From Lachnospiraceae bacterium (lineage in GTDB: Bacteria > Bacillota > Clostridia > Lachnospirales > Lachnospiraceae), in NCBI GenBank assembly GCA_017621815.1, contig JAGASK010000039.1, positions 160,733-224,732 of the forward strand: a DNA stretch of 64,000 nt. Reading direction: 5' to 3'. Numbering within the stretch: the stretch's first letter is position 1; each line of letters opens with the position of its first letter. The position numbers and the translations under genes were made by a program. Shown here piece after piece: positions 14,380-35,213 of this stretch. A model generated the notes under the pieces. That model ran no database searches, was not told the DNA's origin, and saw only the letters and a program-made list of their open reading frames with translations.

Positions 14380-16686
14380 TTATTTCACAGAAGACGCAAT
14401 CAACGTCATCTCTCCCTGCATATCCACTTCTCCGAATCCGTCCGGCAGAATAAAGTGGTCACCCTTCTTAATCATCTGTCCGTTAATCAGTCCTTCCCCT
14501 TCAATGACGCTCATAATCAGGAAAGGATGTGTCTGCTCAAAGGACACAGGCTTTGTCACCTCTAATTTCCATACCTTATAATAGTCGCAGGAAATCAGTT
14601 CGTTTAAGGTGTTTTCAGGCAGATTAAGAGCTGACTTTACGCTGTCTGCGGCAGAAGGGGCAGGCACCGTAATCACATCAATGCTCTGCTCTACATGAAG
14701 CTGGCGGGGCTTGCCGTCCGTCAGTCTGTCATAATCATAAACACGATACGTGATATCGCTGTTCTGCTGGGTCTCCAGAATCATCAGTCCGCCCTTAATG
14801 GCATGTACCGTACCGGGATTAATCTGGATAAAGTCTCCTTTTTTAACGGGAACTTCACGAATCAGTTCAGACCACCTTCCCTGATGAATCATATCCTGAA
14901 GCTCCTCTTTTGTTTTTGCATTATGTCCCACCACTAAGGATGCATTCTCGGGACAATCCAAAATATACCAGCATTCCGTCTTACCCAGAGAACCGTTCTC
15001 ATGCTCTCCGGCATAAGCGTCATCAGGATGCACCTGAATGCTTAAATCCTCCCTGGCATCAATGATTTTGATTAACAGAGGGAATCTGTCAAGCTCACTG
15101 TTTCCGAATAATTCTGGCTCTTCCTTCCAAAGCTGTGAAAGTGTCCTGCCCTCATAAATACCTTCTTTCACGGTGCAGTCGCCGTTCGGATGGGCGCTGA
15201 CTGCCCAGCACTCTCCTGTTTTATCCCCGGGAATCTCATAGCCAAACTTATCCTTAAGCTGGCTTCCTCCCCAAATCATCTGTTTAAATACGGGATTCAA
15301 AAATAGAATAGGTCTCATCTTTTTATTAATGGTTAATTCCCTTCCATTGGATTCAATAATCTTCTGATACCAAAATGCGGAATCCTTAACAATTCTCTTC
15401 TGAGTCGTAAAGTCTACATGAACAATTCCGAATCTTTCCGTATATCCCTTATCCCATTCAAAATTATCAAGGAAGGTCCACAGGAAATAACCTCTTACAT
15501 CCACACCCTCATCATTGGCTTTCTGAAGGGCTGAAATATATAAATCCAAAAAGTTCTGACGGTTCGGGTCATGAACCCTGCCGTCAAGTGAAACATCATC
15601 ATGACAGGACATGCCGTTTTCCGTAATATATAAAGGCATCTGATATCTTTCATACAAGAACTTTACGCCCCAGTAAAAGCATCCCGGCGTTACCGGCCAG
15701 TTTGCAGCGGTTTTGGCAAGTCCCACCGGTCTGTCCACATATTCCGGCTCACCATCCGCACCCTGTCTCATCATGTAGCCATTGTAAATATTCTGTCCCA
15801 TGAAATCAAGGGGCTGGGAAATCAGCTTCATATCTTCATCGGTAATTTCAGGCAGATACTCTGCAAATTTTTTCAGCCCTTCTTCCGGGTATTTTCCAAG
15901 GAAAACAGGGTCATTGAACCATGCCACATTCCAGGTCCAGTTATCCATAGGCTGATAAAAGCCAAATAAAGTTTTTCTTGCCGCCTCAATGTCCTCCGGC
16001 TTATCTGTTGCAGGATATGCCATTCCGCAAGTAGGTGCATATCCTACCTTAATGGGCCTGCAGGCATATTTTCTTAAATTAATAACAGCCTGCCCATGAG
16101 CCCGAAGTGCATTGTGGGCAATCTGAAATACATCCTTATAAGGCAGCTTCATTCCGGGAGCATGAACCCCTGACAAATGTCCCAGACCAACGAAGCACTC
16201 AGGCTCGTTTAACGTAATAAAGTACTCACAGATATCCGAAAAATTCTCAGCAACCACTCTGGCATATTCACCGAACCACTCAATGACTTCTTCATTCAGC
16301 CATCCGCCCTTGTCCTGCAGCGCCTGGGGAAACTCCCAGTGATACATGGTAATATAAGGCTCAATGCCGTTCTTTTTCATTTCCAGTATCATATCCCTGT
16401 ATAAGGCAATAGCCTTCTCATTTACCTTCCCGGTTCCCTTCGGCAGGATTCTTGCCCAACTCATGGAAAAACGGTAAGCTTTAATGCCAAGCATTCTCAT
16501 CAGCGCATAATCTTCTTTATACTTATGCATATGGTCGCAGGCTGTCCGGGAATCATTTCCATCCAGAATCCTTCCTTCTTCCGTGAAGGTATCCCAGATA
16601 TTTTTCCCGCATCCGTCACCTTCTTCTCTTCCTTCCACCTGATAGGCGCTGCTTGCCACACCCCATACAAAATCATCGCGAAACAT
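14380..16686 (-). CDS. fusion of GH1 beta-glucosidase and mannose-6-phosphate isomerase
   Basis: One 768-residue frame holds two complete enzymes. Residues 1 to about 450 are a GH1 barrel with acid/base Glu161 in T-L-N-E-P and nucleophile Glu356 in I-T-E-N-G, typical of beta-glucosidases. Residues 457-768 are a class I mannose-6-phosphate isomerase (ManA, cupin). Its zinc ligands are visible in Q-V-H-P-D-D (His553), K-T-E-C-W (Glu571) and G-T-V-H-A-I (His628), and the conserved W-A-V-S-A-H-P is present. Almost no linker separates them; Met457 matches the start of a stand-alone ManA. No signal peptide is present, so it acts in the cytosol. In the mannan pathway it would free glucose from oligosaccharide ends and turn mannose-6-phosphate into fructose-6-phosphate. 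AGAGGA precedes ATG 16686. Confidence 0.93.
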   Translation of the reverse strand: MFRDDFVWGVASSAYQVEGREEGDGCGKNIWDTFTEEGRILDGNDSRTACDHMHKYKEDYALMRMLGIKAYRFSMSWARILPKGTGKVNEKAIALYRDMILEMKKNGIEPYITMYHWEFPQALQDKGGWLNEEVIEWFGEYARVVAENFSDICEYFITLNEPECFVGLGHLSGVHAPGMKLPYKDVFQIAHNALRAHGQAVINLRKYACRPIKVGYAPTCGMAYPATDKPEDIEAARKTLFGFYQPMDNWTWNVAWFNDPVFLGKYPEEGLKKFAEYLPEITDEDMKLISQPLDFMGQNIYNGYMMRQGADGEPEYVDRPVGLAKTAANWPVTPGCFYWGVKFLYERYQMPLYITENGMSCHDDVSLDGRVHDPNRQNFLDLYISALQKANDEGVDVRGYFLWTFLDNFEWDKGYTERFGIVHVDFTTQKRIVKDSAFWYQKIIESNGRELTINKKMRPILFLNPVFKQMIWGGSQLKDKFGYEIPGDKTGECWAVSAHPNGDCTVKEGIYEGRTLSQLWKEEPELFGNSELDRFPLLIKIIDAREDLSIQVHPDDAYAGEHENGSLGKTECWYILDCPENASLVVGHNAKTKEELQDMIHQGRWSELIREVPVKKGDFIQINPGTVHAIKGGLMILETQQNSDITYRVYDYDRLTDGKPRQLHVEQSIDVITVPAPSAADSVKSALNLPENTLNELISCDYYKVWKLEVTKPVSFEQTHPFLIMSVIEGEGLINGQMIKKGDHFILPDGFGEVDMQGEMTLIASSVK

Positions 16687-16757: not shown

Positions 16758-19700
16758 TTAAATATAAAATTGAAACCAGTTAAAATCAAAGCAGCTTCCC
16801 GGCATAAAGATAAAGCTTAAATCGCCTTTTCCCTTCAGTCCTTCTATTTCAAATGCCTGCTCTCCATATTCATGGTTCTCAGCCGCTTCCACCACCTGAA
16901 TGCTGCTGCCGGTATCACTTACGAAACGTATCTGCACAGGATTTAAACTCTGATAAGAACGGCAGTTTAATATAATTCTGCCTGCTCCCTGCTTTCCGAA
17001 ATCCATCTGCTTAAATACAAGGGAAACATTGTTTCCAATTTTCTCCACTCTGCCCTGATTGATTTCATAGCCATCACCGTAAATAGTATCACACTGCGCA
17101 GCTTCAAGTCTGGCATAGGCCTTTTCCTGCTTTGTAAAATATATGCTCCTTAGCTGAAAACTGCAGTCAGTTGCTATATACAAAGGTATATTTCCCTTGA
17201 TTCTCTTTCTCAGTTTATAGGGCTGCTCCTTGAAAACCATCCATTCAGGCACCTTATGATAAAAGCAGTCTGCCAAAAGCTCACTGCCTGCTTTTTCCGG
17301 ATTACCCTCCCAAATCTGAAAAGTGACGGCATCATTGGTGTTTGCAAAAATGGAAAGCACGATTTCATCAGTGCCGAAATCACCGAAATCAATGTCTGTA
17401 AATCCAACAACACACTGATATGTTCCCTGATTGCTGTTGTTATCACAGCCCAGGAAATTCACTCCGTGCTCTATGCCTTCCCCGGCTCTTTCTGTCCTGA
17501 ATCCGCACAATCCGGCGGGTATCTCTTTATAAGGATTCAGATAAGCCTTTCCGATTCCCTCTGCGCTCATCTCCAATTCGGAACAGACACTGACGGCAGA
17601 ACCTCCGTTTCGCGAACAGCACTTAACCCTGAATTTTCCATCCCCCGAGGCCTTCACTCTTGCTCCGCCTTCAAAGGGAATAACTTCCGCGAAATTTACA
17701 GTTATGCCTGTATCATTTACAGCCTTCCACTCCAGCTCCCTGTAAGCTGCATTTTCAGGATATAACATCACACGAATTTCCGCTTCCGGCTTTTCCTTCG
17801 TGAGAATATTGCTCCCTTTGAGCTGAAGCTCCGCTTTTCTTACCGGTATTTCCTGACATCCCTTTTCCAGTACCTGTCCTTTAGAGCCGCCTCCGTAAAC
17901 AGGATATTCTTTGTTTTCTTCCGCAGCCGAAACCTCTTCTGCCCCGAAAACGCCCTCCTGCTTTTCTACAGGAAGTGCCTGCAATGTCAGTCTGCATTCC
18001 TTACATCCGGGAGAAGTTATTATTACATTGATTTCACCTGCTTCTTTTTTACTTCCGATAATTGCCAGCAGCTTTCCCCCGAAAAGTCTTTTGCTTTTTC
18101 CTTTAAAGGCATCAAAATCCGCGCTGTCTCCATTGTCAAGGCCGATTAACCTGCCGGCCCCCCGAACCTCCACATGCATACGGTTATTGGCATTTTCCAC
18201 AGGATATCCCTGTTCATCCAGTACGCTTATTTCCACAAAAATCAGCTCCTGTCCGTTCCCGTGCATTTCATATTTATCAGCAGATGCAATGATTCGAACC
18301 GCATCCGAAAAGGAATGTCTGGTCTTTCTTGCAATTTCCTTTCCCGATAAATCATAAGCTGCGGCGGTTATTTCACCTTTTTCATAAGGCACCAGCCATC
18401 TTCCTGCCTGATTTCTTCCATGAACATGGTCAATTTTATGGCGCCCCATGCTTTTTCCGTTAACAAACAATTCCACTTCCGGCGCATTGGAGCACACCTG
18501 CACATCAATGTTCTGCCCTTCATTAAAATCCCAGTACGGAAACACATGCACCATGGGCTTTTCCCTGTAATCCGTCCATTCCGACTGAAAAATATAAAAA
18601 GAATCCTTAGGGAAGCCTGCGGTATCTATCTGACCGTAATAACTGTTTTTGGTCTCATAGGGCGTGGATTCCCCAATATAATCAAAGCCCGTCCAGATAA
18701 ACTGTCCCAGGGAAAACTCTGCATCCCTGTCATCGCAGATACAGGCTTCATAACTTGCCGCTCCCCAGCCTGTAATGCTGTTTCCAAGGGCTGAACACTG
18801 CTCATCCTCATCTGTGAGAATCGACTTTTCCAAAGGGAAATGATAAATTCCCCTGCTTGCAAGCACAGAGGCTGTCTCACTGCCGTAAATAATCCAGTCC
18901 TTATGGGTTTTATGATGTTCTTCATACAAATATTCAGAGTAATTATATCCCACGCAGTCAAGCTCTTTTGCGCATTCCTGAGGGTTCTCCCACTTCATAA
19001 AATTAGAACCCAGGGTAACAGGCGCATGATTTTTATAATCATGCTTTCTGACAGCATTTTTTAAACTCATGGTAATTTCCAGTCCCCGCTCTTTCACAAG
19101 AGTATCCTGTATCTCATTACCGATGCTCCACATCATAAGGCTTGCATGGTTCCTGTCCCTTCTAATCCAGGAAGCCACATCTTTTTCATACCAGTCATTA
19201 AAAAATCTTGCATAGTCATATGCGGTCTTAGGTTTTTCCCACATATCAAAAGCCTCAGATACAATCAGAAAGCCCATTTCATCTGCAAGCTCCATAAATT
19301 CAGCCGCCGGCATATTATGGGAAAAGCGGACAGCGTTTACTCCCATTTCCCGCAAGTTTTTCAGCTTACGCCTTGCCGCCTCCTTATAAAAGGCAGCCCC
19401 CAGGGCTCCCAGGTCGTGATGCTCACAGACGCCCTTTACCTTTACTTTCCTTCCGTTAAGTAAAAAACCTTTATCCGGAAAAAATTCCATGGTACGGAAA
19501 CCAATGCTTTGTTCTTCCGTTTCAAGCACTTCTTTTCCGTTTAAAAGCTGCGTGGTTACCTGATATAAATTCCCTTTTCCGATGTCCCAAAGCGCGGGAT
19601 TTATTACAGGAGCCAGGCTCTGGCTGATAATAATGCTGCCTTCTTTCAAATTATCAATGCTTTTCTCCTCTTCCGCTATCAGATTTCCCTGCGGGTCAGT

Positions 19701-20264
19701 AAGGTACTGTTTCAGAAAAAAAAGCGCTCCTTTATCTGCTTCCTTCACCAGAACCTCCGTGTCAACTTCCACACTCCAGGTATTATCCTTCAACTTTACA
19801 GGCGTAATATAAATTCCGTCAGATGCAATATGAATTTTCTTCCGTTTTTTCAACCAGACATTGCGGTAAATACCTGCCCCCGAATACCATCTGGTATTCG
19901 GTTCACGATACACGACACGTACGCAAATCAGATTTTCCCCTTTCTTCAGAAACGGCGTTATTTCCACCTCAAAGGCGGAATAACCATACTTCCACTCCCC
20001 TGCCGGATTTCCGTTAACAAACACAGCGGAATCCATGTACACGCCGTCAAACCGGAGGACAATTTCTTCCTCCTTTTCCACAATCAGCTTTTTACGGTAC
20101 CAGCCAATACTGTTTCGATACAGATTATGGGTATCATAAATCATCCAGTCATGAGGAATATCCACTTTCCTCCATGATGCTTTTTCCGGCATCCGGAAGT
20201 TCTGCTCATCAAGTTCCAGCTCACAGAACTCCCAGCCGTCATTCCATAACAATTTTAAAGCCAT
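16758..20264 (-). CDS. GH2 family glycoside hydrolase (beta-galactosidase-like), multidomain
   Basis: An 1168-residue cytosolic enzyme without signal peptide. It has a GH2 sugar-binding jelly roll (about 1-150), an immunoglobulin-like domain (150-260) and a TIM barrel (260-560) with acid/base Glu384 in W-S-I-G-N-E-I and nucleophile Glu463 in Y-G-S-E-T-A. Further beta domains of the DUF4982/GH2 C-terminal type run to about 700. Two C-terminal jelly rolls resemble CBM6/35; the last ends D-F-N-W-F-Q-F-Y-I. The motifs fit beta-galactosidases, but GH2 also includes mannosidases and glucuronidases, so activity is open. It lies 23 bases after the chemoreceptor gene and 71 bases before GH1-ManA, within the mannan locus. 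Confidence 0.88.
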   Translation of the reverse strand: MALKLLWNDGWEFCELELDEQNFRMPEKASWRKVDIPHDWMIYDTHNLYRNSIGWYRKKLIVEKEEEIVLRFDGVYMDSAVFVNGNPAGEWKYGYSAFEVEITPFLKKGENLICVRVVYREPNTRWYSGAGIYRNVWLKKRKKIHIASDGIYITPVKLKDNTWSVEVDTEVLVKEADKGALFFLKQYLTDPQGNLIAEEEKSIDNLKEGSIIISQSLAPVINPALWDIGKGNLYQVTTQLLNGKEVLETEEQSIGFRTMEFFPDKGFLLNGRKVKVKGVCEHHDLGALGAAFYKEAARRKLKNLREMGVNAVRFSHNMPAAEFMELADEMGFLIVSEAFDMWEKPKTAYDYARFFNDWYEKDVASWIRRDRNHASLMMWSIGNEIQDTLVKERGLEITMSLKNAVRKHDYKNHAPVTLGSNFMKWENPQECAKELDCVGYNYSEYLYEEHHKTHKDWIIYGSETASVLASRGIYHFPLEKSILTDEDEQCSALGNSITGWGAASYEACICDDRDAEFSLGQFIWTGFDYIGESTPYETKNSYYGQIDTAGFPKDSFYIFQSEWTDYREKPMVHVFPYWDFNEGQNIDVQVCSNAPEVELFVNGKSMGRHKIDHVHGRNQAGRWLVPYEKGEITAAAYDLSGKEIARKTRHSFSDAVRIIASADKYEMHGNGQELIFVEISVLDEQGYPVENANNRMHVEVRGAGRLIGLDNGDSADFDAFKGKSKRLFGGKLLAIIGSKKEAGEINVIITSPGCKECRLTLQALPVEKQEGVFGAEEVSAAEENKEYPVYGGGSKGQVLEKGCQEIPVRKAELQLKGSNILTKEKPEAEIRVMLYPENAAYRELEWKAVNDTGITVNFAEVIPFEGGARVKASGDGKFRVKCCSRNGGSAVSVCSELEMSAEGIGKAYLNPYKEIPAGLCGFRTERAGEGIEHGVNFLGCDNNSNQGTYQCVVGFTDIDFGDFGTDEIVLSIFANTNDAVTFQIWEGNPEKAGSELLADCFYHKVPEWMVFKEQPYKLRKRIKGNIPLYIATDCSFQLRSIYFTKQEKAYARLEAAQCDTIYGDGYEINQGRVEKIGNNVSLVFKQMDFGKQGAGRIILNCRSYQSLNPVQIRFVSDTGSSIQVVEAAENHEYGEQAFEIEGLKGKGDLSFIFMPGSCFDFNWFQFYI

Positions 20265-20287: not shown

Positions 20288-22489
20288 TTATACCTTAAAT
20301 TTTTCAATGGACTCATTTAGCTGCTGCGCATCCTCTTTCAGCTTCTCTACCTCATCCTTTAAACTCTGAATAACGGAAACCTGTTCGCCCAGCGTTGCCG
20401 TAACCTCCTGGGTGGAGGCTGCCACTTCTTCGGAAACAGCCGAAATATTCTGAATGGAACCCTGCACCATTTCTTTTTCTTCCATTATGGTTTTAAGCCG
20501 AAGGGTAATGGCACGTATGCCTTCTACCAGTTCCCCTACACAGGAATGAATTGAACCGAACACTTCTACAGTCTGAGAAAGGGCTGCTGCCTGCTCATTG
20601 ACCATCTCTTCCGCTTTCTTTGCGGAAACCGTAGTCTTATCCGTAGTGCTTCCTATGTTTTCCACGATTTCCCGGATCCTGTTGCCTGATTCCTTGGATT
20701 GGTCGGCCAGCTTTCTGATTTCTTCTGCTACAACCGCAAAGCCTCTTCCTGCTTCGCCTGCCCTTGCGGCTTCGATGGAAGCATTCAAAGACAATAGATT
20801 GGTCTGTCCGGCAATGCTGTTAATCACATCCACGAAGCTCTTGATTTCTTCCGAGCTTTGCTGTACCGCACTGATATCTTCCACCAGTACTCTGGTAAGT
20901 GAAACCGTAGTATCTGACTTGCTGCTTAAATCCTGTACAATTACCTTTCCTTTTTCCACAGCATCAATTGCTTTATCCGCAGCCGTACCCATATCCCCGG
21001 TTTTCTCTGTTACCGCATTGATGTTGTCGGAGAAATCCAGCATTTTCTCATTACTGGTTTCCGTGTCCTCGGCCTGGTTCTGCACACCCTTGGCAACTTC
21101 ATCCATGGCAACCGCAATGTCCCCCATAGAGGTACTGACGGCTGTCGTTTTATCGGAAACATCCACAGAAAGTTCGTTTACCTTGGTGCCAAACCCTTTC
21201 ATATCCAGCATCAGCGTTCTCATGCTTCCTATCATAGCATTCAGGCTGGAGGTCAGTATCTTAAACTCGTCTTCTCTCTTTGTGACAAAATCTTTTGATA
21301 AATCTCCTTCAGCTACAGCTGCAAGTCCCGTTGTCATGGATTTCACCGTTTTGCTGATACCCATGGAAATATATGCTCCGATAGCCAAAGCTGCGCCTGC
21401 TGCTAAAATTACCATGATAATAGTAATATATTTAATCGTTCCTACCTGGCCCAAAAGATTGCTTCTGGGAATCAACGCACATATCATGGCGCCTGTTTTT
21501 CCTACGGGAGTATAAATATATACATACTTCTTACCGTTCAGCTTTACGTCCCTGCTTCCCGTTTCTTCCGCTGATTTGGACTCTTCAAAAAACGCGTTGC
21601 CAATAAAATAGGTTTCTTCTACAGGTTCTTCCTTTCCCTGAACGGACACAGTTTCCCTTCCGTCTTCCGATACCAGCGCCCTGATGCTTCCGTTTCCAAA
21701 GTCCATCTGGTCAAGCATCTCCATAGCCACGCTCATGTCAACATCCAATACAAGAACCGTATTATTCTTCAGCATTCTCTGATAAAAAACAAGGGCATAT
21801 TTTTCCGGTGTGCTGTTCATATTGTCATCCAGATATGTATGATATCCCATCCACTTATTTCTTATGGACGCATTTTCCGCAAAAAAGCTTCCTTCTGATG
21901 TTTCTGTAAAATCACTGTAGGGGTTATCCGTCATGCCGCCCGTCAGGGTTGATAAATAAGAACCTCCCTCCGGTATTACGGAACAGCTGAAAACATATTT
22001 ATTAGTTGATTTCGTATTGCTGATTATGGATTTAGCACTCCGGAAAGCCTCCATTGCATCGCCATCCTGCTTCTTATAATATTTTTCATAATAATTGCCT
22101 ACATCACTGTTTGTAACAAGCTCAAGCGCCTTGCCTGATATGGAATCACACACAAGATTACAGTAATTCCCCACCGCTGACACTGTAGACATGGCAGATT
22201 CTTTGTACTTGGACAGAATACCGGAAGAGGCTGTATTATAAGATACAATTCCCAGGGCAACCATTAAAATTACCGGTACCAGAAAGCCCAAAAGAAGGGT
22301 CTGCATAATACTGCGCTTGCTGTTTCCCCTCACATCCTTTACAGCCTGCACCGTATATTTTGCATCCTGTTTCTTTTTCTTTATCTTTTTTTCAGCTTTA
22401 TCCCTGACAGCTTTTTTGGCTGCCTTCTTTTCTTCTTTACTTACAACTGCCCTCTTATGATCCTTCATTTCGTTTTTGTTTCTTGCCAT
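20288..22489 (-). CDS. methyl-accepting chemotaxis protein
   Basis: A 733-residue chemoreceptor. An unusual 55-residue Lys-rich cytoplasmic tail precedes the first membrane span (about 61-84). An extracellular sensory domain of the Cache type covers about 85-345, then a second span (about 352-378), HAMP, and the coiled-coil signalling domain. The hairpin tip Q-T-N-L-L-S-L-N-A-S-I-E-A-A-R-A-G-E-A-G fits the tip that contacts CheA/CheW. It would report an external or periplasm-side ligand to the flagellar motor. Its position between the esterase gene (60-base gap) and the GH2 gene (23-base gap) suggests a mannan-derived or related ligand (inference). No flagellar or che genes are in the window. 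Confidence 0.95.
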   Translation of the reverse strand: MARNKNEMKDHKRAVVSKEEKKAAKKAVRDKAEKKIKKKKQDAKYTVQAVKDVRGNSKRSIMQTLLLGFLVPVILMVALGIVSYNTASSGILSKYKESAMSTVSAVGNYCNLVCDSISGKALELVTNSDVGNYYEKYYKKQDGDAMEAFRSAKSIISNTKSTNKYVFSCSVIPEGGSYLSTLTGGMTDNPYSDFTETSEGSFFAENASIRNKWMGYHTYLDDNMNSTPEKYALVFYQRMLKNNTVLVLDVDMSVAMEMLDQMDFGNGSIRALVSEDGRETVSVQGKEEPVEETYFIGNAFFEESKSAEETGSRDVKLNGKKYVYIYTPVGKTGAMICALIPRSNLLGQVGTIKYITIIMVILAAGAALAIGAYISMGISKTVKSMTTGLAAVAEGDLSKDFVTKREDEFKILTSSLNAMIGSMRTLMLDMKGFGTKVNELSVDVSDKTTAVSTSMGDIAVAMDEVAKGVQNQAEDTETSNEKMLDFSDNINAVTEKTGDMGTAADKAIDAVEKGKVIVQDLSSKSDTTVSLTRVLVEDISAVQQSSEEIKSFVDVINSIAGQTNLLSLNASIEAARAGEAGRGFAVVAEEIRKLADQSKESGNRIREIVENIGSTTDKTTVSAKKAEEMVNEQAAALSQTVEVFGSIHSCVGELVEGIRAITLRLKTIMEEKEMVQGSIQNISAVSEEVAASTQEVTATLGEQVSVIQSLKDEVEKLKEDAQQLNESIEKFKV

Positions 22490-22549: not shown

Positions 22550-23680
22550 TTATGAATCAGAACCGATTACCGAAACCAGATAAAACGGCACCACATCCTT
22601 ATCATGAGATTCAATTATAGTGATTTCCACCGTATGTTTTCCCGGTTCCATATGTTTTGTCACAGTATCAATATATAAACAATCTCCCCAGTCTTCATCA
22701 AAATTGCCGTCAAGTATTACAGCTTCGTTTTCCCTGCCGTCTACCACTGCCTTCGCAACGCAGGTAGGCTGTTTTACCGATTTTCTATACTGTACGGCAA
22801 CACCTGTACAATCAAAGGTAAAAGTGATTTTATCTCCCGTTTTCCACGCTGTCCAGCCATTTCTGAAAACATCCCGTATATCGCTTTGAGGCGCCTTATC
22901 TGCGGCAAAGCCTTTTGTCTCAGGTGAGGAATTAAAGTTCTGATAACGTACAGATTTCTCATAGGCATTGGCTGTAATGGGATCAGGCAGTATTTTTCCT
23001 CCGAAGTCAAAAGGTTTTTCTTCTGTTTCAATACCCTCATAAACATCTTCAAGAAAGGCAGTAATAACCTGAGCCACCAGCTTATGACCTGCATCATTGG
23101 GATGTAAATCATCCGGTGTAATTTCCCGATTGGGAATTCTGCCGCTTTCCACCTCAGGCCAAATCGTGCTTTTCATGCTGACCATGGGAAGTTCATAAGC
23201 CTTTGCAACCTTAAGATGCATTTCCTGGGCATTTACTCCATTGTCATACCGCACATTGTTCATCAGCATAAGCGCCGGTGAACATTTATCACCGAGAGTC
23301 CTGCGGACAAGACCTTCATAGGTTTCCGCAAAAAACTCCGTATTATCATCATTTACCGCAAATTCTATCAACACGAAATCAGGATTATATTTAAGCAAGT
23401 GCTCTTCTACCCTCGAAACACCAAATTGAGAAGTAGTTCCACCGATTCCCGCATTGATAAATGTGATTTCCGATTTCGGAAATTTATTTTTCCACCATTC
23501 ATATACAAGATAGGCATAACATGTTTCCGGTGTGGAAGAAAGACTTCCCTGCGTGATGGAACCGCCCAGGAATCCTACTGTAATTTTTTCTCCCTGCAGT
23601 GCCTTTTTCATACATTTCTTGATACGATACCAGTTTCCCCTGTTGATCATTCCCTTTTCAGGATGTACATTATATGCCAT
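22550..23680 (-). CDS. SGNH/GDSL carbohydrate acetyl esterase, CE17-like
   Basis: A 376-residue cytosolic esterase. The SGNH domain (about 30-215) shows Ser41 in G-G-S-I-T-Q-G, block II Gly81, block III Asn110 in F-A-V-N-D, and the D190-x2-H193 dyad in D-D-L-H-P. The C-terminal 150 residues form a jelly-roll module resembling CBM35. Catalytic domain first and jelly roll second matches the CE17 mannan acetyl esterase described from Roseburia intestinalis, whereas CE2 has the reverse order. It would remove acetyl groups from imported manno-oligosaccharides so that GH130 enzymes can act. It follows the terminator behind GH130_2, so it may depend on read-through or a promoter I could not identify. 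Confidence 0.85.
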   Translation of the reverse strand: MAYNVHPEKGMINRGNWYRIKKCMKKALQGEKITVGFLGGSITQGSLSSTPETCYAYLVYEWWKNKFPKSEITFINAGIGGTTSQFGVSRVEEHLLKYNPDFVLIEFAVNDDNTEFFAETYEGLVRRTLGDKCSPALMLMNNVRYDNGVNAQEMHLKVAKAYELPMVSMKSTIWPEVESGRIPNREITPDDLHPNDAGHKLVAQVITAFLEDVYEGIETEEKPFDFGGKILPDPITANAYEKSVRYQNFNSSPETKGFAADKAPQSDIRDVFRNGWTAWKTGDKITFTFDCTGVAVQYRKSVKQPTCVAKAVVDGRENEAVILDGNFDEDWGDCLYIDTVTKHMEPGKHTVEITIIESHDKDVVPFYLVSVIGSDS

Positions 23681-26058: not shown

Positions 26059-27222
26059 TCAGCTTCTCCTTATCACCTCAAAACACATTCTACCATTATG
26101 GTAAGGACATTTCCAGGGTTCTACAATAGGTCTTCCCTCAAAAGGCTTTCCTTTTGCATCCACCTCCCAGAACCATTCTGAGCCGTTTCTCTTATCAATT
26201 ACATGTTCTCTGATAAAATTCCATTCGGCCTTGGCCGCTTCCAGATATTCCGGTTTATCGGGATTTTTCTGCCAGCCGTTTAAGAAACCTACTACAGTCT
26301 CCGCCTGTACCCACCAGATACGGTGAGTATTTACCACTCCCTTTTCGCACTCATTAGCAAGGGAATGTCCGTCAAAAGCCACCTTATAAATCTGAGCCGT
26401 CAAATCCTTTGTAATAGGCGTCATTTTTTCTTCATACTTCTTTTCGCCTAAAATTTCCACGCCCCTGTCAATCAGCCATGCGGTTTCAATATCATGTCCA
26501 TAGGAATGTAAATCAATAATGGAGTTCATATTGGCATCAAAAAACACTTCCTGTCTGTGGAGCACCGGATTATATACTTTATCTGCAAAAGTATCCATAA
26601 TCCATTTAAGCCTTTCTTTTACCTCCGGCATTCCCGACACTCTGTAAAGCTCCGTATAGGCTTCAAATACATGGAGCAGAGTATTCATTGTTTTTTCTGC
26701 AATAACACCGTTTTCAGAAAGCTTATCATTTTCAATTTCATGAAATCCCTTGTCAAAGGCTTCCTTATAACCGATTTCATCGGTACATTTTGTTTCAATA
26801 ATGCGAAACAGTTCCTTTGCCATGGAAAGCGCCTCTTCATCTCCCGATGCTTCATAATAGGAGGAAAGAGCATAGATGGAAAAGGCCTGATTATAAGTGT
26901 GTTTAGTAGTATCCTCCGGCTCACCGTTATATTTAATTGACCAGTAAATACCGCCGTTTTCTTTATCCATGCAATGCTCTTTCATGAAGGCAAATCCATG
27001 TTTTGCTTCTTCTAAAAGACTTTCATCCTTTAAAAGTGTATAAGCATTGGAGAAGAACCATGTAATTCGGCTGTTTAAAATGCATCCCTTCACTGCCTTT
27101 TTATCCAGCTTAAGGTCATAATCCATCCATCCATAGTAGCCGCCAAATTCATCATCCCTTAATGCTTTCCAAAAAGGAATAATGTTTTCTGTCAAATGAG
27201 ACCTTATTTCTTCTACCATCAT
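26059..27222 (-). CDS. cellobiose 2-epimerase (mannobiose 2-epimerase)
   Basis: A 387-residue (alpha/alpha)6 barrel of the N-acylglucosamine/cellobiose 2-epimerase family. It converts beta-1,4-mannobiose to mannosylglucose. The histidine and acidic active-site residues appear in L-H-S-Y-G-H-D-I-E-T-A-W near 245 and K-C-P-Y-H-N-G-R-M-C near the end. The N-terminus F-W-K-A-L-R-D-D-E-F-G-G-Y-Y-G is characteristic. The frame is open 28 codons further upstream, but GAGGAG 8 bases before ATG 27222 and the end of the permease gene at 27242 fix the start. It works directly with the following GH130_1 enzyme. Confidence 0.94.
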   Translation of the reverse strand: MMVEEIRSHLTENIIPFWKALRDDEFGGYYGWMDYDLKLDKKAVKGCILNSRITWFFSNAYTLLKDESLLEEAKHGFAFMKEHCMDKENGGIYWSIKYNGEPEDTTKHTYNQAFSIYALSSYYEASGDEEALSMAKELFRIIETKCTDEIGYKEAFDKGFHEIENDKLSENGVIAEKTMNTLLHVFEAYTELYRVSGMPEVKERLKWIMDTFADKVYNPVLHRQEVFFDANMNSIIDLHSYGHDIETAWLIDRGVEILGEKKYEEKMTPITKDLTAQIYKVAFDGHSLANECEKGVVNTHRIWWVQAETVVGFLNGWQKNPDKPEYLEAAKAEWNFIREHVIDKRNGSEWFWEVDAKGKPFEGRPIVEPWKCPYHNGRMCFEVIRRS

Positions 27223-27241
27223 TTCACTATCTCCTCTCTGA

Positions 27242-28090
27242 TTAACCCTTAACAGCTCCCGCCGTAAGTCCGCTGTAAATCTGTTTCTGGCAGGTAATAA
27301 ATACAATCAATGCCGGAAGCAGGGAAATAATAACACCTGCACATATCAGATTATATTTACTTCCCAGAGGTCCTACGAAGGTATACAGGGAAGTCGCTAC
27401 CGTAGGCAGGTTCTTTTTGTCCTGCAGATACAGGTTTGCGGAATAATATTCATTATAAGTGCCTACTCCCTTTAAAATACATGAGGTAACAATCGCAGGC
27501 TTAAGGAGCGGCAGCAAAATCTTATAAAAGATTGTAAAATAAGAAGCTCCATCCATAATACCTGACTCATCCAAAGAATAATCAATATTCTCAAAGAACT
27601 GAATATAAATATATATGGAAATAATATCAGTACCGCACATCATTATGATATACCCAACCAGGGAATTAATAAAGCCCAGTTTATACATAATTTCATAAAC
27701 TGCAATCTGCATGGCAACACCGGGAAGCTGGGATGCAAATAAAAACAGGTTGCGGATAATTCCGTTACCGGGAAATTTAAATCTGTTTAAAACATAGGCC
27801 AGCTGGGTACCGATTAAGGTGGAAGCAATCAATACGCAAACCAGAATAATTGCGGAATTAATAAATGCCCTTCCCATATTAGCCTTTTGGAAAGCCAATA
27901 TGAAATTATCAAAATTCAACCAGCTTTCAGGTAGCACCATAACGTTTGTCTGCTGATATTCTGTATCCGTTTTAAAAGCAGTGATTACGCAGGAAACCAC
28001 AGGCAGCACCGCTACGAATGAGAAAAATACCAATGAAAAATATTTAAGGAAAACTAATAAATATTTGCCGATTTTCTGTAAAATTGTCAT
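27242..28090 (-). CDS. ABC sugar transporter permease, MalG type
   Basis: A 282-residue integral membrane protein with about six spans. The EAA loop is visible as E-S-G-I-M-D-G-A-S-Y-F-T-I-F-Y-K-I-L-L-P-L-L-K-P, which couples the permease to the shared ATPase. It begins directly after the stop of the MalF-type gene, with no gap, so their translation is coupled. With the lipoprotein upstream it forms a CUT1 importer, probably for manno-oligosaccharides given the flanking enzymes. Confidence 0.94.
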   Translation of the reverse strand: MTILQKIGKYLLVFLKYFSLVFFSFVAVLPVVSCVITAFKTDTEYQQTNVMVLPESWLNFDNFILAFQKANMGRAFINSAIILVCVLIASTLIGTQLAYVLNRFKFPGNGIIRNLFLFASQLPGVAMQIAVYEIMYKLGFINSLVGYIIMMCGTDIISIYIYIQFFENIDYSLDESGIMDGASYFTIFYKILLPLLKPAIVTSCILKGVGTYNEYYSANLYLQDKKNLPTVATSLYTFVGPLGSKYNLICAGVIISLLPALIVFITCQKQIYSGLTAGAVKG

Positions 28091-29095
28091 TTATCTGCCC
28101 GCCTTTCTAGCTGCTATTTTCGCCAGCTTTTTCTCACGCTTTACAGCTGCGTTCTTATCCTCATCCTCTGCGTTCTTAAATACATATTTAAAGAACAGCT
28201 TCTGCAGAATAGTTACCGCAAGAATAATTATCAGAAGCACGATTGCCATAGCCGAAGCCAGACCAACCTTCTGCTGAGTATGGGCAATTTCATGCATAAC
28301 TACAAAATAAGTACCGGTTCCGTTAGCACCGTCAGTAATAACATAAGGAGGCTCAAATGCACTTAAGGAACCTGTAATTGACAGAATAACATTTAACGTA
28401 ATAATCGTCTTAATACTTGGCAGGATAATATATTTAAACTGCTGAAATCTATTGGCACCATCCAGCATGGCTGCTTCATATAATTCTGAATCCACGGACA
28501 TAATGGCTCCGATAAAAAGCACCATATTCTGTCCGAAATAACGCCATACAGACGTGCCCACCAGAGATATATTGTTAATTCTCTGGTCTTTTAACCAATA
28601 AGGTAAATTATCAAGCTGAAATCCGCACCACTGCAGCACTGTATCAAATACAAAGCCTCTGGTGTAGAAAAATTTAAAAATGAAACCAATGGCAATACCA
28701 TTAATCAGATAAGGGAAAAACATAAATCCCTTAAATACACTTCCCCCTTTTACCTTAAAACTCAAAATGGTTGCAAGATACAAGGCAAGTGCCAGCTGCA
28801 CCACTGAACCAACCATATAATACAAGCTCAATTTCAATGCGCCAAAGCAGTCATCTCTTTGGAACACCTTCATATAATTTTTTAAGCCAACGAATTTTCT
28901 TGTACCCACGTACTTCATATCATAAAAGCTGAAACCAAACATTTCTGCAAAGGGCAGATATGTAAAGGTAAATAACAGCACCAGAGGAATAACCATAAAA
29001 GCAATCATAACAAATACCTTTTGTCCGTCTCTGCTTTTTGCCCATTCCCCAAATGTTCTTTTCTTTTTCGGCCTAGCCGCCTGAGTCATTGCCAT
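28091..29095 (-). CDS. ABC sugar transporter permease, MalF type
   Basis: A 334-residue integral membrane protein with a basic cytoplasmic start (R-P-K-K-K-R-T-F), about six spans, and the EAA motif E-A-A-M-L-D-G-A-N-R-F-Q-Q-F-K-Y-I-I-L-P. The C-terminus is a basic tail (R-E-K-K-L-A-K-I-A-A-R-K). It is the partner of the following MalG-type permease. No ATPase gene is present; Clostridia commonly share one MsmK-type ATPase between such importers. GGAGGAA precedes ATG 29095. Confidence 0.94.
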   Translation of the reverse strand: MAMTQAARPKKKRTFGEWAKSRDGQKVFVMIAFMVIPLVLLFTFTYLPFAEMFGFSFYDMKYVGTRKFVGLKNYMKVFQRDDCFGALKLSLYYMVGSVVQLALALYLATILSFKVKGGSVFKGFMFFPYLINGIAIGFIFKFFYTRGFVFDTVLQWCGFQLDNLPYWLKDQRINNISLVGTSVWRYFGQNMVLFIGAIMSVDSELYEAAMLDGANRFQQFKYIILPSIKTIITLNVILSITGSLSAFEPPYVITDGANGTGTYFVVMHEIAHTQQKVGLASAMAIVLLIIILAVTILQKLFFKYVFKNAEDEDKNAAVKREKKLAKIAARKAGR

Positions 29096-29119
29096 AAGCT
29101 CTTTCCTCCTGATAACATA

Positions 29120-29165
29120 TACATCCCGGATGTATTAGAGCCAAGGAGAGACCTCCCCTTGGCTC
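29120..29165 (-). promoter_or_regulatory. stem-loops between binding-protein and permease genes
   Basis: The 157-base gap contains a 9-bp stem GAGCCAAGG/CCTTGGCTC at 29138-29165. A second inverted repeat, ATACATCC-C-GGATGTAT, lies at 29120-29136 close to the permease ribosome-binding site. No U-tract follows, so a complete terminator is unlikely. Such hairpins often protect the upstream mRNA and let binding protein outnumber permease (inference). Confidence 0.6.
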
Positions 29166-29252
29166 CATATTCATTACAATAGAAAGTTAACAGAACGTGC
29201 TTTCCATTATTTTTATCAATAACTATAACGCTATTGAATTCAAGGCTTCAAA

Positions 29253-30710
29253 TTAGTATAATACTTCGATGCCAAGTTCTTCCTGTGCAGCATTCCATTT
29301 AGCTGTCCAGTCAGCCATAATATCATCAAAGCTTTCAGAACCTGTAGCTCCTGCTTCAACGATTCTCTGTACCTTAGCATTTCCGCCTGCATTGAAGGAA
29401 AGTTCGGATTCAGAGTTCATCTGATTTAAGAAATCAGCTTCACCGTCAAGGGCAGGCTGGTCACTTAATACTGTAGAGCCGTCGAATGCAGCATATAAAT
29501 CAGGATTCTGTCCATCTTTATCTACTGTGTAACCGCCTTCGTTATAGCACCATCCGGATTCCTCTGTCATCCACTTAATAAATACCATAGCAGCTGTCTT
29601 GTTTTCATCAGAAGAATTGATATTGATACCATAGCTGTAATCACCACCAGCTAATGCATACTGTGTTCCGCCAACTGTCATAGGGAAAGGCATATATCCA
29701 ACATCTTCACCATGGTCACCAGCTTCTACCATCTGAGCATATGCCCATGAACCCAGTACCATTGTGCCGATTTCACCGTTGTTCAGCATGCCCTTGCATC
29801 CTTCCCAGTCGGTTGTTGTGTAGTCTTCTTCGATTAAGCCGTTAGCTACTGCATCATAAAGAATTCTGTATAAGTTGTAAATACCTGTGTCATCACCGGG
29901 ATCTTCAAAAGGAGATGCTGTATGAACAAGCTTCTGGTTCATATAAGTATCATCACCGTTTGATACGATACCGATGTAAGCATCCCATGCACCCATGGTC
30001 CAGCCTGCTGCATAGTTAGTATACAGAGGAATAGCATCTGTATTGTCTTTGATTAACTGTAAATCTGCAAGGAACTCTGTAGGAGTTGTAGGAAGCTCAG
30101 TAATACCTGCTGCTTCAAATACAGCCTTGTTGTACAGAACGCCCTGTGCGTTTGCCATGTAAGGAACACCATAGCTGAGTCCGTCATATTCCCAGATGTT
30201 TGCGAAGTTAATTTCCGCATCGAGGTTTGCAAGTGTGTCAATCGGATAGAAGTATGTGCTTAAATCAGCCTTGTCTACAGCAGGGATAAACATGATGTCA
30301 CCCCAGTCACCTGTAGAAAGACGAAGCAGTGCATCTTCTGCATAATCAGTTACGCCTTCTGTTTCAACGGTGATATTAGGATATACCTTGTTGAATTCAG
30401 CAATCATGGCTGCAATAGTACCATCTTCTTCACGGTCTGTCTTGTGATGAATCCACTTAATGCTTGCTGTCAAATCTGTATAATCTGTTCCAACAGCAAT
30501 CTGTGAATAAGAAGGAACTCCTTCAGGAGTTTCAGCTTCAGCTGTATCTGTTGTTTCCTCCTGTGTGTCTGTTGTTTCTTCTGTAGTTGTGTCTGCAGTC
30601 TCAGTTGTTGTATCTGCAGATTCTGTGTTGTCGCTGCTTCCGCCGCATGCAACTAAAGATAAGGTCATAGCTGCTGCAAGAGAAAGTGCTAAAACTTTTC
30701 TCAGTTTCAT
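29253..30710 (-). CDS. extracellular sugar-binding lipoprotein of ABC importer
   Basis: A 485-residue CUT1 solute-binding lipoprotein. The lipobox L-S-L-V-A-C places the lipid on Cys22. A Thr/Glu/Asp-rich flexible linker covers about residues 28-62, and a two-lobed binding fold follows (S-I-K-W-I-H-H-K-T-D and G-S-W-A-Y-A-Q-M segments). Its position at the head of the permease-epimerase-GH130 unit makes manno-oligosaccharides the likely ligand, like the mannan-binding protein of Roseburia. GGAGG lies 10 bases before ATG 30710. The ligand is inferred from context only. Confidence 0.92.
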   Translation of the reverse strand: MKLRKVLALSLAAAMTLSLVACGGSSDNTESADTTTETADTTTEETTDTQEETTDTAEAETPEGVPSYSQIAVGTDYTDLTASIKWIHHKTDREEDGTIAAMIAEFNKVYPNITVETEGVTDYAEDALLRLSTGDWGDIMFIPAVDKADLSTYFYPIDTLANLDAEINFANIWEYDGLSYGVPYMANAQGVLYNKAVFEAAGITELPTTPTEFLADLQLIKDNTDAIPLYTNYAAGWTMGAWDAYIGIVSNGDDTYMNQKLVHTASPFEDPGDDTGIYNLYRILYDAVANGLIEEDYTTTDWEGCKGMLNNGEIGTMVLGSWAYAQMVEAGDHGEDVGYMPFPMTVGGTQYALAGGDYSYGININSSDENKTAAMVFIKWMTEESGWCYNEGGYTVDKDGQNPDLYAAFDGSTVLSDQPALDGEADFLNQMNSESELSFNAGGNAKVQRIVEAGATGSESFDDIMADWTAKWNAAQEELGIEVLY

Positions 30711-31098: not shown

Positions 31099-31992
31099 AT
31101 GAATATAAAAACTTCCTTTTTGAAATCATTGACATCTGCACCCAAGCTTTCATCCGGGCATAAACCCGAAGAATTTCTGGGACATATTTATAGTGAAGAA
31201 ATCAATTCTGATTCCAAATTTCTCCGCATTCTGTCAGGCGGTATAATTCAGGCTTCTTCTCCTTACTCCTTTGACATCCGTTCTCTTGACTGCTATATGC
31301 TGCTTTACACTAAAAGCGGCTGCGGCAAGCTGCTGATTCAGAATCAGGTCTACACTCTCATGCAGTCTTCTCTTTTATTTTTAGACTGCCACGAGCGTTT
31401 TCGCCTGGATATCGCCATAGCCCCCTGGGAATATCAGATTTTATTTATAACAGGAAATCAGCTCAAAAACTACTATGATTTATTACCTGGAAGCACAGCC
31501 ATCATGCCCCTGCTTCCTTATTCCGAGACTGCATTATGCCTTGAAAAGCTGTCTGTTTTTGACATATCGGATCAGACAGCTTCTGTCCTTTCGGCGTCTT
31601 CGCTGCTGAATACCATTATAACAGGCTGTGTGGTTTATCAGCTGGCGGACAATTCTCCGTCCCAGCTTATTTCTTCCTACTTAAACGAAATGAAAGAACT
31701 GTTTGACACTAATTTTCAGGAAAATTATTCACTCGATGATCTGGAAGAACGTTTTCACATAAGTAAGTACAGACTTTGCCGGGAATTCGGAGCAGCCTTC
31801 CATATGCCGCCCCTGCAATACCTGAACAGAAAAAGAATAGAGGTAGCAAAGCATCTGCTTCTTACTACCTCTTTAAAAGTCCACGAAGTGGGAAGCCGGG
31901 TGGGAATTGATAACACCAATCATTTCATTTCCCTGTTCAAGAAGTTTACCGGCCAGACTCCTCTGGAATATAAACAAAATAAAATATTATAA
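31099..31992 (+). CDS. AraC-family transcriptional regulator
   Basis: A 297-residue regulator. Residues 1-180 form an N-terminal cupin-like sensing domain (Y-T-K-S-G-C-G-K-L-L-I-Q-N-Q). Residues about 195-295 hold two helix-turn-helix units (L-E-E-R-F-H-I-S-K-Y-R-L-C-R-E-F, then V-G-S-R-V-G-I-D-N-T-N-H-F-I-S-L-F-K-K-F-T-G-Q-T-P). It is divergent from the transporter operon and likely activates it in response to an imported oligosaccharide or metabolite (inference). Its 3' end overlaps the convergent LacI gene by 6 bases. Confidence 0.9.
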   Translation: MNIKTSFLKSLTSAPKLSSGHKPEEFLGHIYSEEINSDSKFLRILSGGIIQASSPYSFDIRSLDCYMLLYTKSGCGKLLIQNQVYTLMQSSLLFLDCHERFRLDIAIAPWEYQILFITGNQLKNYYDLLPGSTAIMPLLPYSETALCLEKLSVFDISDQTASVLSASSLLNTIITGCVVYQLADNSPSQLISSYLNEMKELFDTNFQENYSLDDLEERFHISKYRLCREFGAAFHMPPLQYLNRKRIEVAKHLLLTTSLKVHEVGSRVGIDNTNHFISLFKKFTGQTPLEYKQNKIL

Positions 31993-33006: not shown

Positions 33007-33036
33007 GTTTCTCTCCTCCGTTTCCCCTTTTATCAA

Positions 33037-35190
33037 TTAACGGCTTTCAATTTCAAAAATTCTTGCCATTACAGGCTCGCCGTATTTCACTGCCAAAGCC
33101 TTTTCTTCCTTCAGATAGCCGTAACTGCAATTATCCTGCCGGGTTTTTGAAGGATAAGCAAGTCTTACCGAAAGTTCTCCTTCCCCTTCAAACAAATGGC
33201 CAAGCGGAATCTTTTTGCTTTCTTCGTTTCCGCCTCTTCTCCATAATGCAAGATATGCTTTCTTCTCTGTCTTAAGAACACTGCAGAGCCAGTTATCACG
33301 GCTGTCAGCAAGACCCCAGGGCCAATCCGGCAGAGCTTTTTTAATATCCTCCCTGATAGTCTTGTAATAGGCAATTCCTTCTTTTACCAGCGCCTTTCTC
33401 CCATCGGAAAGCTCTTTCAAATGCCCGCTTTGATGAATCCGCAAAAGCAGGGCATTTACCATATTATAAATCGTTTCCTCTTCATCCCCATCCCTTTGAG
33501 GATAAGACCAGACTGCTGCCTGCTCCGGTGTCAGCCCTGCACAGGCATTGGCTGCAATCGTTGCATAATTCCGGTAGTCCTCCTGGTCACTGGTAGACTG
33601 AATGCTGTATCTCGAAAGCATCGCATAGTCAATTCTAAGCCCTCCGCTTGAACAGTTATCAATTACCAAATCGGGATAGCGTTCAAAAACACCTTCCAGC
33701 CATTTTAAATATGCCCTTTCATGCGCCAGCATTCCTGCGCCCGGGCTGTCAGCATACAATTCTGTACCGATTCCCGGCTCAATGTTATAATCCATCTTTA
33801 TATAACCGACTCCATACTCCCTTACAACCCTGTCGATTACCTCATCCACATGGGCAATTACTTCAGGATTTCTGAAGTCCAGCTGATATCTGCTCCTGTC
33901 ATAAACACGTTTTCCGTGACGGACAAAAAACCAGTCATCCGGCGCTTTTTTTGCCTTTTCACAATTAATTCCCATAACTTCAAGCTCAAGCCACAGACCG
34001 GGAACCATTCCTCTGGCACGGATATAATCAGTGACCTCTTTTACTCCCTTCGGGAAACGCTCTTTCGATTCCTGCCACTCTCCTACGCTGTCCCACCATT
34101 CTCCGGGAGCATACCAGCCGGCATCAATCACATAATATTCACAGCCCATTTCCGCAGCCGCATCAATAAGAGGAAGCTCCTTTTCCGTAGTGGGGTCTCC
34201 GAACAGACAATTCATATAATCATTAAAAACAACGGGAAGCTTTTCATTATCCTGATTGGGACGCCTGATTTTACGCCGGTAGGAAGTGAGCTGTCCCATA
34301 GCCTTAGCAAAATCTGCGCTGCAGACGCCTACTGCCACCGGTACGGTGGTAAAGCTTTCCCCGGGCTTTAAGTTCTGAAACCAGTGGGACTGCACTTCGG
34401 CAGGACCGCTTAAAGCCAGATAAAAATGACCGTTTTCATCACTGATTTCCGTATGCCAGGAGCCGTTATGCTCTATCTGCCAGTAAAGAGAAGTGCCTCC
34501 ATCCGTATTTTCCAGATATCCCATAGGAAGATATTTTTTCGTTGACCAGTTTCCCGTATTAGTAAGCTCAATGGTGCCGGATGTACGCTGATTCACTGTA
34601 GGCTGCGTCTGGCCAAGCCCAAGCTCGGGAAAGCTGTAGGAGTGGAAATTAAATTCCTTCTGCCAGCCGTTATATGCATATGTCAGTCTCATCTTATCAT
34701 CAGAACTTGCATTTCCCTCTTTTTCTATGCCCAGATAATAAAAGGAAGAAATATATTCCAGCGTCTGCACCTGCTGCCCTTCATTAATTACCTGATGCTG
34801 CATCCTGACGGTGGATGTACCGGTATAAAACTGCCAGGTGGAAATTACCTTTGCCCCTGTCATTTCATCCTTTTGGGTTATGGTCAGTTTGCGCCCCGTT
34901 TCATTTCGTCCGTCTTCCATATTCACAAAAGTAAGCAGATATCCCGGCGCAGTTACAATGTGTTTATTTCCATGCTTCTCATAAGGCCTGTTATATCCGG
35001 AAAAATTAACCTGTACTACCTGAAAGCCTTCCTTAATAAAAAGATCGCTTTCTTCCAAATCTCTCATAGGTACGGAGGAAAAATGAAAAAGCTTTAACTG
35101 ATTATCCGCTGTAATTCCAAAAACCAGGTAAATGCCATCTTCCTCCATCCGAATCCACTTCTTTACATATCCTTCCGTTCCTTTTGTCAT
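33037..35190 (-). CDS. GH36 alpha-galactosidase-like enzyme (second copy)
   Basis: A 717-residue enzyme of glycoside hydrolase clan D, family GH36. The barrel is marked by Y-V-I-D-A-G-W-Y and G-L-W-L-E-L-E. The nucleophile Asp lies in G-Y-I-K-M-D-Y-N, and the acid/base region is R-Y-S-I-Q-S-T-S-D-Q-E-D. It is clearly diverged from the upstream GH36 (K-M-D-Y-N here, K-W-D-M-N there), so the two probably differ in specificity. No signal peptide, so it acts on imported galactosylated oligosaccharides. I chose ATG 35190, preceded by GAGG at 9 bases, over ATG 35208, which lacks a ribosome-binding site. Confidence 0.88.
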   Translation of the reverse strand: MTKGTEGYVKKWIRMEEDGIYLVFGITADNQLKLFHFSSVPMRDLEESDLFIKEGFQVVQVNFSGYNRPYEKHGNKHIVTAPGYLLTFVNMEDGRNETGRKLTITQKDEMTGAKVISTWQFYTGTSTVRMQHQVINEGQQVQTLEYISSFYYLGIEKEGNASSDDKMRLTYAYNGWQKEFNFHSYSFPELGLGQTQPTVNQRTSGTIELTNTGNWSTKKYLPMGYLENTDGGTSLYWQIEHNGSWHTEISDENGHFYLALSGPAEVQSHWFQNLKPGESFTTVPVAVGVCSADFAKAMGQLTSYRRKIRRPNQDNEKLPVVFNDYMNCLFGDPTTEKELPLIDAAAEMGCEYYVIDAGWYAPGEWWDSVGEWQESKERFPKGVKEVTDYIRARGMVPGLWLELEVMGINCEKAKKAPDDWFFVRHGKRVYDRSRYQLDFRNPEVIAHVDEVIDRVVREYGVGYIKMDYNIEPGIGTELYADSPGAGMLAHERAYLKWLEGVFERYPDLVIDNCSSGGLRIDYAMLSRYSIQSTSDQEDYRNYATIAANACAGLTPEQAAVWSYPQRDGDEEETIYNMVNALLLRIHQSGHLKELSDGRKALVKEGIAYYKTIREDIKKALPDWPWGLADSRDNWLCSVLKTEKKAYLALWRRGGNEESKKIPLGHLFEGEGELSVRLAYPSKTRQDNCSYGYLKEEKALAVKYGEPVMARIFEIESR

Positions 35191-35213
35191 TTCTTCTGTC
35201 CTCTCCATGCTGT

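Follow-up and report, generated by a model that had tools for sequence, protein, structure and literature searches.

A gene in a 64,000-nucleotide stretch of a Lachnospiraceae genome (hereafter the window) encodes a family GH1 glycosidase and a mannose-6-phosphate isomerase (ManA) in one chain, which raises the question of whether both halves work and what is gained by their fusion. The gene is a single open frame of the minus strand, with a purine-rich stretch just ahead of its ATG (Table 1); frame 1 of the plus strand over the same positions is full of stops. The Pfam match to GH1 spans residues 2-448 (E 7.5e-139) and covers positions 5-452 of the 453 in PF00232, at 463.5 bits for a cut-off of 22.6. 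In the second half, Pfam places the type I PMI catalytic domain at residues 462-559 and the MPI cupin at 697-766, and the NCBIfam equivalog for class I manA (TIGR00218) reaches 232.7 bits, its cut-off being 116.2. Hence, a complete class I ManA occupies residues 462-766. The linker is short, about 8-13 residues (about 449-461), and residues 446-460 are without helix or strand in an AlphaFold2 model built from 38 aligned sequences, of which 33 are fused and 5 have a single domain. The model has two confident domains, with a mean pLDDT of 91.5 and a pTM of 0.75, figures that leave the relative placing of the domains unfixed. Eight barrel strands can be read from it in the GH1 half (7-12, 70-74, 109-115, 155-160, 213-217, 295-300, 352-357, and 397-403). 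The closest solved relative of the ManA half is PDB 1qwr (E 1.1e-103), a 319 aa chain without a GH1 domain that we take to be a Bacillus subtilis-type ManA. The open frame and the profiles agree with a preliminary description of this DNA, which named no strand and had proposed two complete domains in a single 768-codon frame with a short linker, and the five residues that it named as catalytic (Glu161, Glu356, His553, Glu571, and His628) all lie where it placed them.

Table 1. Features of the window, in window coordinates, with residues numbered along the fused protein.
Feature	Position	Strand	Evidence
Fused GH1-ManA gene, 768 codons plus stop	14380..16686	-	ORF, Pfam, NCBIfam
Class I ManA domain, residues 457-768; Gln551, His553, Glu571, His628	14383..15318	-	Pfam, NCBIfam, structure match
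Linker, residues 449-456 (Pfam GH1 end to ManA start)	15319..15342	-	Pfam, AlphaFold2 model
GH1 domain, residues 1-448	15343..16686	-	Pfam, structure match; coordinates computed from frame
Codon of Glu356, presumed nucleophile	15619-15621	-	coordinates computed from frame
Codon of Met247, inside the GH1 barrel; D1/D2 division point of RiGH1 in the literature	15946..15948	-	
Codon of Glu161, presumed acid/base	16204-16206	-	coordinates computed from frame
GH2 glycosidase, upstream of the fusion	16758..20264	-	Pfam, NCBIfam
Methyl-accepting chemotaxis protein, inside the locus	20288..22489	-	
CE17-type acetylesterase, homologue of R. intestinalis RiCE17 (PDB 6hfz)	22550..23680	-	
GH130 protein, 340 aa	23782..24804	-	Pfam, NCBIfam
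GH130 protein, 391 aa	24854..26029	-	Pfam, NCBIfam
GlcNAc 2-epimerase family protein; nearest NCBIfam model cellobiose 2-epimerase	26059..27306	-	Pfam, NCBIfam
Sugar ABC transporter: two permeases and a solute-binding protein	27242..30710	-	Pfam, NCBIfam
AraC-type regulator	31099-31992	+	
LacI-type regulator	31987-33036	-	
Two melibiase-family proteins, the second a full GH36	33037..37403	-	

The genes from GH2 to the ABC transporter are on the same strand as the fusion and at higher coordinates, i.e., upstream of it. With both domains in the order GH1 then ManA, in one frame and in a beta-mannan utilisation locus, the gene is a fusion of the RiGH1 type. The same setting recurs among relatives. 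Of 83 other distinct fused proteins, 60 come from loci with at least 12 kb of sequence, and within the stretch covered 55 of these loci have a CE17 homologue, 37 have a GH130 homologue, and 57 have one or more among CE17, GH130, and the epimerase. The mannan-locus setting that had been proposed is therefore supported; L031, L055, and L106 have no homologue of CE17, GH130, or the epimerase within the stretch covered. A homologue of the chemotaxis receptor gene that lies between GH2 and CE17 occurs in the covered stretch of 17 of the 60 relatives (27-78% identical).

The GH1-ManA pairing is already known. It appears in a report on R. hominis whose authors are reportedly Bhattacharya and colleagues. 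The preliminary description knew of no described enzyme with this pairing, yet the relevant sections of two papers present one, in 2019 for R. intestinalis (PMC6385246) and in 2022 for R. hominis A2-183 (PMC9784577). RiGH1 of R. intestinalis has the same 768 aa and the same domain order as the window protein, is 73% identical to it, and its locus likewise holds homologues of CE17, two GH130 proteins, the epimerase, and the ABC transporter. RhGH1-M6P of R. hominis, which belongs to a manno-oligosaccharide locus, is predicted to join GH1 to a mannose-6-phosphate isomerase like the window protein, and it stands in the text on this locus as a prediction only (PMC9784577). Two other proteins resemble it in print: FpGH1 of F. 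prausnitzii SL3/3, by its 2021 description as a "GH1 isomerase" of a mannan locus that performs the step from mannose-6-phosphate (M6P) to fructose-6-phosphate (F6P) (PMC8262883), and bhn_I1967 of Butyrivibrio hungatei, by its annotation alone as "Mannose-6-phosphate isomerase" with GH1 (PMC6344614).

The fusion is conserved, and is neither a chance event nor an assembly accident or local sequencing error. A whole-protein search found both domains at 95% of their length or more in one frame in 60 of 79 related loci; because these 79 scored best among more than 580 candidates, this fraction overstates the frequency of the fusion and is not a prevalence. The remaining 19 comprise contig ends, incomplete copies, lone domains, a single frameshifted copy, and fusions of other kinds. 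An even sample of the family gave the full fusion in 12 of 299 genomes, counting the window's own and leaving out G006, where the two parts sit on contig ends. The corresponding sample of the class gave 4 of 391, all four in the same family, and the genus group of R. inulinivorans 16 of 60. In six of the 12 family genomes (G000, G060, G122, G045, G041, and G207) the fused gene is the sole match at E 1e-20, and the other six have extra GH1 or ManA matches, such as the free ManA of G099. The window's own genome, about 92% complete, has one GH1 and one ManA match, both within the fused gene, together with five GH3 matches and one GH26. A plasmid search matched 989 records, none of which covered 80% of the query, and those listed mainly cover the GH1 part. 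A frame error at codons 445-457 was considered and ruled out, as the junction is open in 84 distinct fused proteins.

We propose, with a probability of roughly two in three, that the protein is a cytoplasmic bifunctional enzyme of beta-mannan use whose GH1 and ManA both work, with independent activities, and whose fusion amounts to co-production. The cytoplasmic location is suggested by the chain starting directly with the GH1 domain. This domain would be a working retaining beta-glycosidase, most likely cutting glucose off the non-reducing end of imported glucomanno-oligosaccharides. The class I ManA would convert M6P, derived through a mutase from the mannose-1-phosphate of the GH130 enzymes, to F6P. 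Neither product would be the substrate of the other reaction, and the fusion would bring co-production rather than channelling; it probably arose when neighbouring genes were joined at the edge of the mannan locus. We infer the GH1 activity, its substrate (glucose release), and the origin and benefit of the fusion. The interconversion of M6P and F6P by the window's ManA would follow by analogy with the C-terminal piece of the R. intestinalis protein, for which the published account gives it (PMC6385246). The bifunctional reading has in its favor the complete profiles, the kept residues, the low dN/dS, the 57 mannan loci out of 60, the two-domain model, and the activity and expression reported in R. 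intestinalis. Against it are the reported inactivity of residues 1-246 (of that piece only), the GH3 enzymes, and relatives whose GH1 half is damaged or absent.

The GH1 family holds several specificities, and there is a small but real chance that the domain is active on another substrate, as a beta-mannosidase or as an enzyme for a Glc-Man disaccharide, cellobiose, or a beta-galactoside. The locus, with its GH2 and two melibiase-family genes, would accommodate this, and terminal glucose could be covered by GH3 enzymes. Yet the GH1 half exceeds the cut-off of the NCBIfam equivalog for GH1 beta-glucosidases (TIGR03356, 493 bits vs 478.5), and its nearest solved structure is that of the beta-glucosidase Ks5A7 (PDB 9l0q, E 1.2e-163; a 460 aa chain without a ManA domain), although neither match settles the substrate. 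In R. intestinalis two GH3 enzymes are described as already releasing glucose (PMC6385246); given these and the five GH3 matches here, the GH1 may be redundant.

We regard it as improbable that the GH1 half is dead or vestigial, a passenger or stabiliser of a ManA that alone does the work. The main ground for such a reading is the published account of RiGH1 (ROSINTL182_05469/70), a predicted bi-functional protein whose gene responds to beta-mannan with raised expression (La Rosa 2019, PMC6385246). As described there, D1 (aa 1-246) was inactive on the substrates tested, including G4, M4, M5, M6P, G6P, and F6P, and the functional significance of the N-terminal domain is called "currently unclear", while D2 (aa 247-768), named the "family GH1 isomerase domain", is a phosphomannose isomerase that interconverts M6P and F6P (PMC6385246). 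Each of the two pieces has its own locus tag, and the sequence contains ambiguities where the first one ends (PMC6385246). The division at 246/247 is far from the domain boundary found here (about 449-461). To place it, we used genome G732, in which a fused protein of exactly 768 aa adjoins a CE17 gene; the CE17 product is identical to PDB 6hfz over 372 residues, with zero differences, and a review assigns 6HFZ to RiCE17 of R. intestinalis (PMC9487903). G732 is taken as R. intestinalis because of this match. In its orthologue, residue 246 is a Pro and residue 247 an internal Met, one of 21 in the 768 residues. Residues 1-246 match positions 5-240 of the 453 in the GH1 profile, with Glu356 outside the piece, and residues 247-768 match positions 241-452 and then ManA. 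On the model of the window protein, D1 ends between the fifth and sixth barrel strands and misses three of the eight, and both the nucleophile and the region of Trp403, Glu410, and Trp411 fall in D2.

Placed by profile and model, the 246/247 cut splits the predicted GH1 barrel. D1 as stated is thus half a barrel without Glu356, and its negative result says little about the GH1 domain, which, with the construct as described, does not appear to have been given a fair test in the published work. We considered whether 246/247 is a misprint for 446/447. This is judged unlikely because residue 247 is a Met, the pieces are two locus tags, and D2 from 247 still matches GH1, in keeping with its published name.

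The conservation of the active sites also argues against a dead GH1 half. Among the 94 full-length copies from the window and the collected loci, which include two repeats of the window's own and represent 84 distinct fused proteins, Glu161 is present in all 84 and Glu356 in 83, the exception being a Lys in the metagenome assembly of L032. These are the glutamates of the TxNEP and ITENG motifs, both found in the window protein, and we take them, from what is known of the family, to be the acid/base and the nucleophile. Gln16, His116, Trp117, Tyr301, Trp403, Glu410, and Trp411 are present in the window protein and in all 84; the retention of Glu410 and Trp411 is presumably as in non-phospho GH1 enzymes. 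Asn160 is replaced by Asp and Asn299 by Gly in L105, and Asn408 by Asp in L130. Gln551, His553, Glu571, and His628 of ManA, presumably its metal site (His, Glu, His, with Gln), are likewise found in 84 of 84. The catalytic residues had been called intact, and nearly all of the distinct fused proteins do carry both sets.

Purifying selection acts on both parts of GH1 with about the strength seen in ManA. The median dN/dS values of GH1 and ManA are 0.055 and 0.050; inside GH1, residues 1-246 have 0.057 and residues 247-446 have 0.046. These values come from 48 close pairs out of 3486 (40 sequences), with synonymous distances of 0.05-1.2 in both halves, all of them among relatives of the window protein. 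Selection thus acts on the whole barrel, which is not a relic, and yet some relatives are damaged in this half or lack it: it is truncated beside a kept ManA in L070 and L071, its nucleophile is changed in L032, and the loci of L078 and L094 do not contain it. On balance we think it probable that the GH1 of this family is active, that the reported inactivity reflects a barrel cut at a mis-called internal start, Met247, and that the C-terminal slot is exchangeable, being filled by ManA in most of the lineages seen, by a CE2 acetylesterase in a nested pair, and by nothing in others. If so, this is a mannan-pathway GH1 with a swappable partner and not a fixed two-step enzyme. RiGH1 is part of the model mannan-use pathway of a butyrate-producing gut bacterium, and whether its GH1 is active decides whether this pathway includes one more glycosidase. 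What is useful here is that a single corrected construct makes this open point of the pathway testable.

It is very unlikely that there are two products, ManA being also, or only, started internally at Met457. There is indeed an ATG at codon 457, at the start of ManA, and L078 and L094 have a free ManA with its own start. However, this column holds a Met in only 5 of the 84 proteins, and 35 of them have none anywhere in columns 449-466 (ATG starts only). Judged by eye, the 30 bases that precede Met457 contain a single purine-rich stretch; about 20 bases separate its end from the Met codon, more than is usual for a ribosome site.

A channelling device or metabolon that must hold both sites together is hardly credible: the short linker is kept in the family, but GH1 products are not ManA substrates, and natural variants have a free ManA (L078, L094), GH1 alone (L061), or CE2 in place of ManA (L064, L066).

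These variants were analyzed further. L078 has the gene order of the window, but with a free ManA (88% identical) between the neighbours of 38236 and 13037; at this syntenic place none of the genes that run from the GH1 half through the NUDIX gene has a match, and neither does the 12140 gene. Set side by side, L078:6640-10198 and window 13037-38236 form a natural marker of the edges of the mannan locus. L094 (genome G264, of the same genus) has a free ManA; CE17, the two GH130 genes, and the epimerase remain at that place, which lacks a GH1 half, and G264 carries another GH1 elsewhere, 58% identical. GH1 occurs alone in L069 as well as in L061. In L064:7998-10415 and L066:7977-10421, a GH1 related to that of the window is fused to a CE2-type esterase, without ManA, in loci that contain CE17 and GH130 homologues. 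The domain call relies on CE2_N above its cut-off and GDSL just under its own, and for L066 was made on L092, apparently the same contig. The two group together in the GH1 tree (97, starred), and with the fused L040 and L044 (99, starred), so the simplest reading of these sequences would be a replacement of ManA by CE2. One narrow literature query returned no description of a GH1-CE2 fusion, a weak hint that it has yet to be described. Since either half can be lost, the fusion looks unneeded for either activity, and the coupling of the halves looks dispensable. The earlier idea that fusion may fix the ratio of the two enzymes or hold both near the GH130 enzymes finds no support in the relatives, some of which are without one of the halves, encode ManA on its own, or carry CE2 instead. 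The wide occurrence of the fusion, its losses, and the partner swap form a natural series on the purpose of such fusions.

Trees of the two domains were built after dropping every fused protein whose identity to a chosen one exceeded 80%, as well as L063, L080, L092, L131, and L179. All 34 fused GH1 representatives fall inside one group of 52 rows (SH-aLRT 90, not starred; midpoint root), together with the two CE2-fused rows and a further 16, made up of free GH1 and of broken or cut copies (e.g., L060, L079, and L099). Fused and free rows are mixed in the ManA tree. A single exclusive clade of fused rows was rejected for both domains, in a test that left out L082 and L088 for ManA and L090, L091, and L097 for GH1; this pattern would fit losses, repeated fusion, or both. 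With the 34 representatives, the tree of GH1 and that of ManA reject each other, and so do the halves of one domain: of 31 splits, the GH1 halves share 4, the ManA halves 7, and GH1 and ManA 5. As the halves of one domain conflict as much, we make no claim of domain shuffling within the fused proteins.

A few observations concern other copies and more distant chains. The copy of R. inulinivorans DSM 16841 (L079:8001-10300) changes frame within its ManA half and so occupies two frames, either truly or by an error of the draft assembly. Genome G099 carries the fused L106 and a free ManA, L153, which are mutually nearest rows in the ManA tree (99, starred), by duplication, gene conversion, or separate fusion. 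Beyond these, the searches recovered GH1-GH5, ManA-ROK, ManA-PHP, ManA-GH5, and ManA-DUF7402 chains, the last weak and below cut-off. The GH1 chain with a GH5 cellulase-family domain has 752 aa (L091:1723-3981). The ManA-ROK chains (584-623 aa) are found in L082:693-2546, L088:606-2360, L095:1664-3535, and L096:743-2608, and possibly combine a mannose kinase with the isomerase, i.e., two successive steps. In L082 a GH1 gene directly precedes the ManA-ROK gene, and homologues of CE17 and GH130 lie close by.
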